From Gammaproteobacteria bacterium (GTDB taxonomy: Bacteria > Pseudomonadota > Gammaproteobacteria > Steroidobacterales > JABDKV01): DNA of 41,117 bases. Positions 2,017 to 7,185 of this stretch are shown here, in pieces. A program made the position numbers and the translations under genes. The stretch spans positions 1-41,117 of the forward strand of contig JAHEKH010000016.1 of NCBI GenBank assembly GCA_024638445.1, in the 5' to 3' direction. The stretch's first letter is position 1; each line of letters begins with the position of its first letter. Under the pieces are notes generated by a model. That model saw nothing but the letters and a program-made list of their open reading frames with translations. It made no database searches and was not told where the DNA came from.

Positions 2017-2032
2017 CGTGACCTGTGTCACA
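2017..2032 (-). promoter_or_regulatory. CRP-like box TGTGA-CACAGG-TCACG upstream of the diguanylate cyclase
   Basis: 9/10 match to TGTGA-N6-TCACA. The hexamer TAGTCT (minus strand, 1995-1990) lies where a class II (-41.5) promoter would have its -10. Confidence 0.5.
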
Positions 2033-2082: not shown

Positions 2083-3396
2083 TTATCCGAGGTGCGGCCG
2101 GGTGAGGTTTTCGTGCCCCGATGCCGTTATGTACACATCGTCCTCGATCCGCACGCCGCCATAGGGCCGGAACCGCTCGACCGCATCCCAGTCGACGCCT
2201 GCAGCGGAGTCCGACCCGCGAAGCTCTGCCAGCAGCATGTCGATGAAATAAACGCCCGGTTCGATCGTGCAGACCGCGCGCGGCGTGAGCGTACGGGTCA
2301 GCCGGAGAAAGGGATGCGCCTGTGGCGGCGGCTGCACCTCGCCGGCCGGGCTGGCCTGGTGGCCGCCGACGTCGTGTACCTGGGTGCCGATGTAGTGCCC
2401 CAGCCCGTGTGGGAAAAAGGTGCCGACGATCCCGCGCTCGACTGCAGTTTCCGCGCTGCAGGTCAGTACGCCATGGTCCACCAATACAGCCGCCATGCGC
2501 CGGTTCGCCTCCAGGTGCAGGTCCACGTAGTCGACACCCGGCGCGGCGAGATCGCAGATCTCCAGCTGTGCCGCATTCACCGAGCCGATAAGCCCTGCAA
2601 AGTCGTCCTCTTCGGCCGAGTAGGTGCGGGTAATGTCCGCGGCATAGCCGTTGCAGGAGGCACCGGCGTCGATCAGGAAAGCCCGTGGTGTGTCGCGCCG
2701 GTCTTCGTAAGCATGGTAATGAAGTACAGCGCCGTGGCCGTTCAGCGCGATGATGTTGTCGTAGGGAAGTTCGGCAGGCGTCTGCCCGCAGGCGCGGCAA
2801 TACTCCAGGTGTATGTCGAACTCGGAGCCGCCGTCGCGAAAGACTCGCTCCGCAGCCAGGTGGCCGCGCGCGGCGATCGCGTTGGCGCGTCGCATGCACT
2901 CCACCTCGTAGTCTGTCTTCGCGGCGCGCTCGAAGTGCAGGATGTCGATCAGCGACTTCGGATTGACCTCGCCAAGGGCCGCCAGGCCTTCCGGAAGCGC
3001 TTCCCCGATGATCGCGACGTTTCCGGCCAGGTCCGCCAGTGCTGCAACGACTTCGTCGTCGCTGCGCACGATTTCTACTTCGAAATGTTCCGTCCAGTAG
3101 CCGGCCGGGTCCTGCGGTGGCAGGTGCCAGTAGTCGCGCGGCTGCAGGTAGATCAGCCGCGGTGTTTCGCCGCTGCCGGCCACGACGGCGCAGCCGGGAT
3201 GTTCGGTCAGCGGCACCCAGCACTTGAAGTGGGGGTTTGCCTCGAAACTGCAAAGGCGGTCATCGAGAAACTGTGGGTGCGGCTGGCCGGAATAGACAAT
3301 GACCCGGTCGAAGCCGCTAACCGCCAGCGCCTCGTCGTGGCGCGTGCGCAGGGTGCGTTGATGGGCGGCAAAGAGTCCGGCAATCGGGTCAGTCAT
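2083..3396 (-). CDS. pepQ: Xaa-Pro dipeptidase (prolidase), M24 family
   Basis: Full-length similarity by eye to PepQ: LIDAGASCNGYAADITRTY, FFPHGLGHYIGTQVHDVGG, TIEPGVYFI, RIEDDVYIT metal-binding motifs. Confidence 0.92.
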   Translation of the reverse strand: MTDPIAGLFAAHQRTLRTRHDEALAVSGFDRVIVYSGQPHPQFLDDRLCSFEANPHFKCWVPLTEHPGCAVVAGSGETPRLIYLQPRDYWHLPPQDPAGYWTEHFEVEIVRSDDEVVAALADLAGNVAIIGEALPEGLAALGEVNPKSLIDILHFERAAKTDYEVECMRRANAIAARGHLAAERVFRDGGSEFDIHLEYCRACGQTPAELPYDNIIALNGHGAVLHYHAYEDRRDTPRAFLIDAGASCNGYAADITRTYSAEEDDFAGLIGSVNAAQLEICDLAAPGVDYVDLHLEANRRMAAVLVDHGVLTCSAETAVERGIVGTFFPHGLGHYIGTQVHDVGGHQASPAGEVQPPPQAHPFLRLTRTLTPRAVCTIEPGVYFIDMLLAELRGSDSAAGVDWDAVERFRPYGGVRIEDDVYITASGHENLTRPHLG

Positions 3397-3459
3397 GGTT
3401 ACGGTCCCCCAGGTGAGACCCCATGATATGCCGAATGGGCGTGGCCGCCCAAGCGGAAT

Positions 3460-3879
3460 TCAGATTGCGTTGTAGCTTACGTAGATCTTGAAGTTCAGCT
3501 CGAAGAAGCACTTCTGCTGGCCAACATTAGAGGCGTCGCGCCAGCCCTGGCAAACACGGCGTCCGGTGATTTCGTTACGCCCTTCGTTAACGGCATTGAT
3601 GATCTCTTCCTGCAGGTCGAAGCCGCCGTCTACACAGTCGACGTTTTTACAGCGGAAGTGAAAGTAGGCACGTGACTGAGGACCAAAGCTCCGGTTGTTG
3701 AGACTCGGTTCGATCTCGTTGTCCTGGCCGCGAATCGACAGGTTTACCGCAAGATGCCGCACGCCGGGCAGCACATCTGCGATCGTGTTGGATTCGACCA
3801 GGTTGCCCATACCACAAGTCTCGGTGGCCTCGGCAGGCTGATCTGATTCCTGTTTACGCTTTTTGAATATGCTGAACAT
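3460..3879 (-). CDS. Uncharacterised small Cys-containing protein under riboswitch control
   Basis: ORF; start taken at the internal Met (MFSIFKKRKQES) preceded by GCAGGAAACAGG. CKNVDC and CQGW..KC cysteine clusters. No family recognised. Confidence 0.7.
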   Translation of the reverse strand: MFSIFKKRKQESDQPAEATETCGMGNLVESNTIADVLPGVRHLAVNLSIRGQDNEIEPSLNNRSFGPQSRAYFHFRCKNVDCVDGGFDLQEEIINAVNEGRNEITGRRVCQGWRDASNVGQQKCFFELNFKIYVSYNAI

Positions 3880-4040: not shown

Positions 4041-4121
4041 CGCTGTCCGGCCGGCTGGCGCCTGGCTTGGGACCGGTGGCTTTGCGTCCCCGCCTCTCGG
4101 TGGGTTTGCCCTGGTCACGCG
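4041..4121 (-). promoter_or_regulatory. Cyclic-di-GMP-I (GEMM-I) riboswitch aptamer
   Basis: Minus-strand sequence CGTGACCAGGGCAAACCCACCGAGAGGCGGGGACGCAAAGCCACCGGTCCCAAGCCAGGCGCCAGCCGGCCGGACAGCG contains the GEMM-I hallmarks: AGGGCAAACC, GNRA loop (GAGA), GGGACGCAAAGCC, CCGG...AGCCGG. The P1 pairing is less obvious by eye. Confidence 0.88.
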
Positions 4122-4255: not shown

Positions 4256-4852
4256 TTAGCTGCGGCGGCGCAGCAGCCCGAGACCCATCAGGCCCGAGGC
4301 AAACAGCAGCAGCGGAGCCGGGATCGGCACCTGCGCGCTGAAGGCGATATCGATACCGATGCCGTTGGCTTCGTCACCGGCCCAGCCGTAAAGGCTGAGC
4401 TTGCCGTTTTCGAGAGTCGATGAGTTGAACGGCGAGTTGCCGTAGCTCGCTTCGGCGAAAGTAAAGGTGCCCGCGAAGGAACCGTCCATCGGCCCGCCGG
4501 TTACATCCATCGTGTAATCCAGGGTGCCACCGGCAAAACCGTTGGCGCCGCTGAGGTCGAAGCTGGCGCTGAGCAGGGTGAACGTCGCGGTCGCGCCGTT
4601 ATCGCTGGTCAGGTTGTATTCCTGCGGTCCGCCCGCAGAAAGAATGGAACCGGTGAGATCGAGCATAATCGTCTGGCCCGGGTCCCAGCGCAGGAAGTCG
4701 GCGGGCGCTGTATTGCCCGGCGTGGCGCTGTCATGCACCAGGGTCCAGCGGTTGCTGTCGAGGAACGTCCCGATCAATGTCGCCGCGTTCGCGCTGAGCG
4801 TGAACAGCGAAAGCGTTGCAACTGCCGCGAGGCGAATCATAAAGGTCTTCAT
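4256..4852 (-). CDS. VPLPA-CTERM/PEP-CTERM-type exosortase-substrate surface protein
   Basis: N-terminal signal peptide MKTFMIRLAAVATLSLFTLSANA; C-terminal sorting tail VPIPAPLLLFASGLMGLGLLRRRS (motif + TM + Arg cluster). Confidence 0.88.
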   Translation of the reverse strand: MKTFMIRLAAVATLSLFTLSANAATLIGTFLDSNRWTLVHDSATPGNTAPADFLRWDPGQTIMLDLTGSILSAGGPQEYNLTSDNGATATFTLLSASFDLSGANGFAGGTLDYTMDVTGGPMDGSFAGTFTFAEASYGNSPFNSSTLENGKLSLYGWAGDEANGIGIDIAFSAQVPIPAPLLLFASGLMGLGLLRRRS

Positions 4853-5091: not shown

Positions 5092-6609
5092 TCACGCCTT
5101 GCGCGGCCCTTTTTCCAGGGCCTCGCGGACGGCATCGACAATCATCTCGATTTCCGTCGAGGTGATCGTAAACGGCGGCGTGAACCGCAGCGAGTGCGTG
5201 CCGCCGTGAATCACACCGATCCCATGCTGGCGCAGGTATTCCTCGATGCTGCCGCTGCCATAGCACTTGTAGCGGTCACGGTTCAGCTCGCAGCTCACCA
5301 GCAGGCCGGTTCCCTGCACCGCGGTGATGGCATCGCCGGTTTCGCGCGCCAGCGCTTCCAGGCGACGCACGAACTCCTGGCCCCGTTCGCGGATGTTTTT
5401 CCGCAGGTCGTCGTCGAGGTTGCCAAGGACCGCGCAGGCCACGTCGAGAGCGCGCGGATTGGTTGTCATGGTGTTGCCGTAGACACCGGGACGATAGACT
5501 GAGGTAGCACGCTCGCCGATCGCCAGTACCGATAGCGGGTACTGGCCCGCATTGAGGGCCTTGGAATAAGTTTCCAGGTCCGGTGCTTCGCAGTCCCCGA
5601 AACCCGGGTAATCGATGATCGACAGGCAGCCATGGGCCCGCAGCCCCGCCTGGATCGAGTCGATGACCAGCATCGACCCGTGCTCGCGGGTGAGTTGGCG
5701 GGCCGCGTCATAGTATTCGCGCGTGATCGCGCTGCCGGGGTTGCCTTCGCCCATGACCGGTTCCATGCACAGCGCTTCGACGAAGTAGCCCTGCTCGTCG
5801 GCCATCGCGAAGGCTTCCTCGAGCTGCGCAATGTTGTTCTGGTCGATGGTGATCGGACCGGTGCCGTCCCGAAAGCTGGCCAGGTTGGATTCGTAGTTGC
5901 CCAGCGTCGAATCGGAATAGCGTGCCGGGCGGTCGGTGCGGCCGTGAAAGCTCATGTTCAGCGCAATACGGCGAATGGGTTTGCCGGCATGCCGGGCGCC
6001 GGGATCGGTCTGGACCTTGGCGTTGATGTCGGCAATGCGAAGCGCCACGGTCATCGACTCCGAGCCGCTGTTGAGACAGACAAAACTGTCGAAAGGACAG
6101 CTGCCGCGGCGATGTCCCAGCTCCGCGCGCATGGCGTCCACGAAGCGCCGTTGTGAAACGCTGGGCGTCATCACGTTGGCCATGACCTGACGCTGATTCA
6201 TTGCGTCGAGCACCAGCTTTGGCGAGTGCCCGAGCCCGAGCATCCCGTAGCCCCCGGAATCGTGAACCACCGCGCCATTGAGCGTGACGACCCACGGCCC
6301 GCTGGCCGCGATCGCGACGTAGGGGTTGACCGCATCGGCCGCATAAAAATTGGTCAGGCCTTCCTGCAGGCTCGCCGTCTGCTCATGCTCCGGCGCACTC
6401 ACGAGGTCGGGCCGCTCGATGCGCAGCTGGCGGTGGGTGACGGCGGCATCGTTGATCGCCTGTTCGAGGGCAGGATCGATGGCGAGGAAGGTTTCGATAA
6501 CCGGGTCGGGCAGCCCCACCGTGGCCGGGCCGGGGGCGGCAGCGGCGCGGATCTCCGCCAGTAAATCGAGACTGGCGGTGCCGGCATTGATGTCTTTCGG
6601 GTGCAGCAT
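5092..6609 (-). CDS. Class III PLP-dependent aminotransferase
   Basis: GGYGMLGLGHSPK, NSGSESMTVALRIA, FHGRTD, CMEPVMGEG, DSIQAGLRAHG, TYSKALNAGQYPLSV (candidate PLP Lys), GNTMTTNPRAL motifs. Confidence 0.88.
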   Translation of the reverse strand: MLHPKDINAGTASLDLLAEIRAAAAPGPATVGLPDPVIETFLAIDPALEQAINDAAVTHRQLRIERPDLVSAPEHEQTASLQEGLTNFYAADAVNPYVAIAASGPWVVTLNGAVVHDSGGYGMLGLGHSPKLVLDAMNQRQVMANVMTPSVSQRRFVDAMRAELGHRRGSCPFDSFVCLNSGSESMTVALRIADINAKVQTDPGARHAGKPIRRIALNMSFHGRTDRPARYSDSTLGNYESNLASFRDGTGPITIDQNNIAQLEEAFAMADEQGYFVEALCMEPVMGEGNPGSAITREYYDAARQLTREHGSMLVIDSIQAGLRAHGCLSIIDYPGFGDCEAPDLETYSKALNAGQYPLSVLAIGERATSVYRPGVYGNTMTTNPRALDVACAVLGNLDDDLRKNIRERGQEFVRRLEALARETGDAITAVQGTGLLVSCELNRDRYKCYGSGSIEEYLRQHGIGVIHGGTHSLRFTPPFTITSTEIEMIVDAVREALEKGPRKA

Positions 6610-6729: not shown

Positions 6730-7185
6730 GTGCCCGACGAAGACTCGATCCACGTATTTGCAACGCACCTGTGGGAAAACGACGACGACTACCTGCGTCT
6801 GTTCGACTACCTGGGCGATATCGACAACTTTTATTATGTGAACCACAGCGCGCCGGAGGACGAACCCGAGGGCGCCGATGCGCTGGCTTCCCGCGAGGCC
6901 CTGCTGGCGCAGATCGAGCCGGCGGAGGTGGTCATCGTCCTGTCGACCCAGTACCTCAGGGACCCGGTGATGATCGAACTGCAGATGGCCACGGCGAAAC
7001 GGCACGGGAAACCCGTCCTGGCCGTCGAACCCTTTGGCCCGGATCCTGTTCCGGAAAAGATTAAAGAAATGTCAGATAAGGTGGTGGAATGGTACGCGCG
7101 CAAAATTGTCGATGGTATAAAGATGCTGGCGCGCGGCGAGGAAGAGCATCGCTTTGACACGATCGACTGGCCCGGCGACCTCTGA
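6730..7185 (+). CDS. TIR-like domain protein (ThsB/MTH538, DUF1863-type)
   Basis: GTG start. Alternating strand/helix pattern HVFATHLWEND..FDYLGDIDNFYYVNHS..LLAQIEPAEVVIVLSTQYLRDPVMIELQMATAKRHGKPVLAVEPFG resembles ThsB-type TIR-like proteins; conserved Glu before the 'GKPVLAV' strand. Confidence 0.6.
   Translation: MPDEDSIHVFATHLWENDDDYLRLFDYLGDIDNFYYVNHSAPEDEPEGADALASREALLAQIEPAEVVIVLSTQYLRDPVMIELQMATAKRHGKPVLAVEPFGPDPVPEKIKEMSDKVVEWYARKIVDGIKMLARGEEEHRFDTIDWPGDL

Follow-up and report, generated by a model that had tools for sequence, protein, structure and literature searches.

Known c-di-GMP-I leaders and the aptamer of the window

In the GEMM-I (c-di-GMP-I, RF01051) riboswitch Vc2, the bases G20, A47 and C92 are the named ligand-contact set (PMC11218506). 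In Vibrio cholerae gbpA, a CRP-activated promoter and a GEMM-I aptamer (Vc1) are combined in the leader of one gene (PMC4545359, PMC4744006), and Vc1 is an ON switch (PMC4744006). The Bc1 GEMM-I of Bacillus thuringiensis controls mcpE through a long expression platform, with two terminators before the ribosome-binding site (PMC11218506). The variant class c-di-GMP-I-GGC has its own covariance model (RF03167).

We analyzed a 41,117-nucleotide stretch of DNA (the window) from a 3.04-Mb draft genome that is ∼82% complete. When the whole window was searched with cmscan, the sole Rfam match above the gathering score was RF01051 at 4120-4030 of the minus strand (47.5 bits vs. a cut-off of 35, E 2.3e-6), and it covered the model end to end (positions 1-87 of 87). 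An earlier note on this DNA had read a GEMM-I riboswitch from a conserved core and had named a covariance-model search as the check: the core that it quoted is present on the minus strand, and the match obtained there is significant and of full length. The note had placed the element at 4041-4121. This span takes in most of the aptamer but leaves off the last 11 bases, which form the 3′ strand of P1 and include the predicted ligand-contact base C92.

In Vc2 numbering, the predicted ligand contacts are G20 at 4110, A47 at 4083 and C92 at 4034 (minus strand), and all three carry the canonical letter. The window aptamer is thus like Vc2 in its full-length covariance-model match, in G20, A47 and C92, and in its GNRA-capped P2 (a GAGA loop in the covariance-model alignment). 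It differs from Vc2 by one A·C mismatch in P2, which is common to two relatives (three species with the window), by a platform of ∼150 nt between the aptamer and the start codon of the next gene (P0001), and by a target gene without a known family.

In a permissive scan of the aptamer region alone, RF03167 gave a higher bit score than RF01051 (55.3 vs. 47.5), although it stayed below its own gathering score of 59. The core consensus lines of the two models differ at the base after GACGC, which is equivalent to Vc2 A47: it is A in RF01051 and G in RF03167. On the basis of these consensus lines, we take the ‘GGC’ of the class name to denote the three contact bases. A GGC variant with a different ligand would account for the higher RF03167 score and for the four relatives that pass the RF03167 cut-off, but the window and every family aptamer examined have A as the diagnostic base, and the window aptamer scores under the cut-off; we rejected this class for the window RNA and consider it highly improbable. 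The aptamers of loci L006, L005, L007, L001 and L008 also score higher with RF03167 than with RF01051 and meet the RF03167 cut-off, yet they have the canonical A47. The RF03167 model alone therefore does not separate the two classes; for the window RNA, the higher RF03167 score reflects overall resemblance rather than the diagnostic base. Since G20, A47 and C92 are canonical, the window RNA is, by its diagnostic bases, an ordinary c-di-GMP-I (GEMM-I) aptamer despite that resemblance. A 3′,3′-cGAMP-type GEMM-I was rejected as well, because position 20 (4110) is G and not A, and the G20A change is associated with cGAMP binding (PMC7288161).

Two further GEMM-I aptamers were found in the same genome, both scoring higher than the window aptamer, which has the lowest score among the 24 GEMM-I aptamers of the family. 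G20 and A47 are kept family-wide (20 of the 24 aptamers read by pattern and the other four by eye), with the identity of C92 read in the window aptamer. The family's other GEMM-I aptamers mostly lie upstream of lipoprotein or secreted-protein genes, and in this the P0001 locus stands apart from the rest of the regulon. One genome of the set (G002, contig C49, 55803-56093) has a tandem GEMM-I pair (L035 and L043, with ∼110 nt between them) that precedes a gene for a predicted secreted protein.

Association of the aptamer with P0001 and pepQ

The gene that follows the aptamer, P0001 (3460-3879, minus strand), encodes a 139-aa protein of a lineage-restricted family. As the earlier note had stated, it belongs to no recognisable family: P0001 had no match in Pfam or NCBIfam at E up to 1 and none among PDB sequences, and its 15 homologues gave only stray single-member matches in Pfam and NCBIfam. 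Cysteines C77, C82, C110 and C124 are invariant, with the spacings C77-x4-C82 and C110-x13-C124 kept without exception in the 15 homologues, which suggests a structural zinc site. An AlphaFold2 model built from seven sequences (pLDDT 73, pTM 0.63) consists mostly of strands with one helix; with this model of moderate confidence, Foldseek searches of the PDB and a viral library returned nothing with an E of 0.001 or below. The target of the c-di-GMP riboswitch is thus a new protein family; the RNA class itself is already known.

Homologues of P0001 are present in all five genomes examined of the window's family and in 20 of the 197 genomes of the order. A search with the family alignment found P0001 in one further genome only of a class-wide genome sample, and a search with the single protein found no homologue in named genomes. 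The family-alignment search also identified six P0001 loci in gammaproteobacterial MAGs, and the arrangement of the locus recurs in independently assembled MAG contigs. The distant P0001 homologues at L027 and L016, which belong to other families, have genes for small RRM-type RNA-binding proteins nearby instead of pepQ.

The aptamer is directly upstream of P0001 in all five genomes of the family, the window included, and in one (L009) of three genomes of a second family. At L011 and L012, the other two loci of the second family, no aptamer was found before P0001 at E up to 0.01; both have the P0001 homologue, pepQ and a CRP-like site. In four loci of the first family a PEP-CTERM-like gene lies upstream of the aptamer, and pepQ lies downstream of P0001 in every locus read of both families. 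The association of aptamer and gene is thus conserved, and the earlier proposal that 3460-3879 is a c-di-GMP-regulated gene is therefore a fair one. Its suggested tie to motility, pili or surface structures is unsupported for P0001, because neither a signal peptide nor a lipobox is visible by eye in the protein (N-terminus MFSIFKKRKQE), and because the next gene downstream in both riboswitch-bearing families is pepQ, predicted to encode a cytosolic enzyme.

The pepQ gene (2083-3396, minus strand) encodes a 437-aa Xaa-Pro dipeptidase (PepQ_N 6.8e-46, Peptidase_M24 4.5e-38), and the gene order is the same in relatives. P0001 and pepQ are separated by 63 nt and are probably co-transcribed, a point that the earlier note did not mention. 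The gap contains a small hairpin, and pepQ could have its own promoter, leaving P0001 alone under riboswitch control. We regard this as unlikely: a scan that started at 3400 and ran to 4900 found no sigma-70-like promoter, nor any terminator-like site in the portion of the gap towards P0001 that it covered, and two families share the gene order.

A CRP-like promoter upstream of the aptamer

A perfect TGTGA-N6-TCAC lies at 4191-4177 of the minus strand, downstream of the PEP-CTERM-like gene and ahead of the aptamer; like the probable co-transcription, it was not mentioned in the earlier note. It is part of the CRP-like 22-mer AAGTGTGATTGCGATCACCGCA (4194-4173, minus strand), which has nine of the ten half-site letters and was equalled in 3 of 1000 shuffles. 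TGTGA-N6-TCAC occurs three times in the window, when compared with 0.25 occurrences expected by chance. At a class II promoter the CRP site is centred at about −41.5, which corresponds to 29 nt before the −10 hexamer when the hexamer starts at −12. The centre of the 22-mer falls at this class II position, 29 nt before a −10 box TATAAC (4154-4149, minus strand; five of the six letters of TATAAT).

A CRP-like site is present at all six riboswitch-bearing loci (the window and five others). Its distance to the best −10-like hexamer is 29 nt in five of them, namely the window and four of the five others, L028 being the exception. Riboswitch-free L010, L011 and L012 keep both the site and the 29-nt spacing, which makes it probable that the promoter predates the riboswitch at P0001 or is independent of it.

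The leader is like that of gbpA in combining CRP control of the promoter (predicted here) with a GEMM-I aptamer in the 5′ leader. The outputs differ: the gbpA product is a secreted chitin-binding colonisation factor, whereas in the window the aptamer precedes the gene of a four-cysteine protein, predicted to be cytoplasmic, and then pepQ.

Ten cNMP-binding matches were found in the genome, and the one examined in detail, a CRP-family protein, has E. coli CRP and Vfr as its closest matches (2.3e-79), with the Xanthomonas-type Clp more distant (3iwz, 1.3e-63). A c-di-GMP-sensing, Clp-type activator is less likely, as the homologue examined is closer to CRP and Vfr. A class I adenylate cyclase was not found in the draft genome, and four matches to the class III nucleotide cyclase domain were. 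The CRP/Vfr-like protein and the class III cyclases support, but do not prove, the action of cAMP-CRP at this predicted promoter.

A second perfect TGTGA-N6-TCAC (TGTGACACAGGTCAC, 2018-2032, minus strand) is intergenic and lies upstream of a gene for a dCache-GGDEF diguanylate cyclase (276-1955), a hint that c-di-GMP synthesis may also respond to cAMP. The diguanylate cyclase gene is not beside pepQ in the relatives read.

The expression platform and a proposed two-messenger model

Two conserved hairpins lie between the aptamer and P0001 on the minus strand. The first, GAGTCGCA...TGCGACTC (4024-3980), directly follows the aptamer; one pair is changed on both sides (U-A vs. C-G), and 97% of the cells are paired across four species. 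The second (3928-3895), just before the ribosome-binding region, resembles an intrinsic terminator: the hairpin GGCCCGGTG-CATGT-CACCGGGCC (3928-3906) is followed by GTCAG and six T. Two of its pairs are changed on both sides across four same-genus leaders; with four leaders of one genus, the covariation of the platform is modest evidence. The six-T run occurs in the window and is absent in relatives, and the scanned region contains two terminator-like sites when compared with 1.5 expected by chance. A further hairpin (3977-3947) was dropped, with 56% of its cells paired and no conservation.

Thermodynamic folding of the window leader revealed no clear switch between states. Enforcing the aptamer fold costs ∼8.5 kcal/mol in the window and hardly alters the accessibility of the start site, and the terminator hairpin forms both when the aptamer is enforced and in the minimum-energy fold, which lacks the aptamer. 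Bc1 resembles the window leader in being a GEMM-I whose platform is long and has terminator hairpins ahead of the ribosome-binding site, and differs in having two terminators, in controlling mcpE and in coming from a different phylum; we claim no sequence relation between the platforms. A Vc1-like ON switch and a Bc1-like long platform with a weak native response are both possible models for this leader.

The Bc1 comparison also bears on whether the window aptamer is a decaying remnant that no longer switches expression, since Bc1, whose platform is likewise long, showed scarcely any response to c-di-GMP in its native context (PMC11218506). The lowest score among the 24 family aptamers, the P2 mismatch, the competing folds that are more stable than the aptamer and its absence from two relatives point the same way. 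Decay is nevertheless distinctly unlikely: five species belonging to two genera, and one genome from another family, keep the core bases of the aptamer, and the mismatch in P2 recurs in three species and is not a random lesion.

These data suggest that the P0001-pepQ leader is probably that of an operon controlled by two messengers, with a CRP promoter, a GEMM-I aptamer, an expression platform and P0001 with PepQ as output. In this predicted scheme (i) cAMP-CRP bound at the 22-mer would activate transcription from the TATAAC box; (ii) the nascent leader would fold into the canonical c-di-GMP-I aptamer; (iii) binding of c-di-GMP would alter, upward or downward, either transcript read-through past the stem-loop at 4024-3980 and the hairpin at 3928-3895 or translation after them; and (iv) the production of the small cytoplasmic four-cysteine P0001 and of PepQ would thereby be set. 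The aptamer, its conserved linkage to the gene, the canonical contact bases, the CRP-like site with its spacing and the conserved hairpins are read directly from the DNA. Against the two-messenger model stand the lack of a clear folding switch, the unconserved T run, the absence of the aptamer from two of the three second-family relatives and its rank as the weakest of the 24.

A more specific and tentative proposal is that P0001 and pepQ form a cytoplasmic operon under cAMP (through CRP) and c-di-GMP, in which P0001 might take part in peptide metabolism, with a possible role in dipeptide use, or might be a new c-di-GMP output protein. If true, the two-messenger arrangement, known at gbpA for a secreted adhesin, would also apply to a new family of zinc-type proteins and to the breakdown of dipeptides.

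As c-di-GMP-I aptamers are a well-known class, the presence of one here is unsurprising. The value of the locus lies in an undescribed, conserved protein family that appears to be under c-di-GMP control, beside a dipeptidase and behind a conserved CRP-like promoter. If borne out, it would add a second example of a single leader that responds to both cAMP and c-di-GMP, probably with a cytoplasmic and not a surface function, and would offer a handle on a protein family without annotation.

Upstream of the riboswitch, the gene at 4256-4852 (minus strand) encodes a PEP-CTERM/VPLPA-like secreted protein that weakly matches the flocculation protein PepA (26.6 bits vs. a cut-off of 80). It holds this position in four genomes of the family and has its own terminator-like hairpin before the riboswitch promoter. 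Further along, the small protein encoded at 6730-7185 (plus strand) has a sub-threshold ThsB_TIR match (18.9 bits vs. a cut-off of 21.2), and its counterpart at L033 scores above the cut-off (25.4 bits). Both in the window and at L033, the ThsB_TIR-like gene is close to a gene for a class III aminotransferase (5092-6609 in the window).
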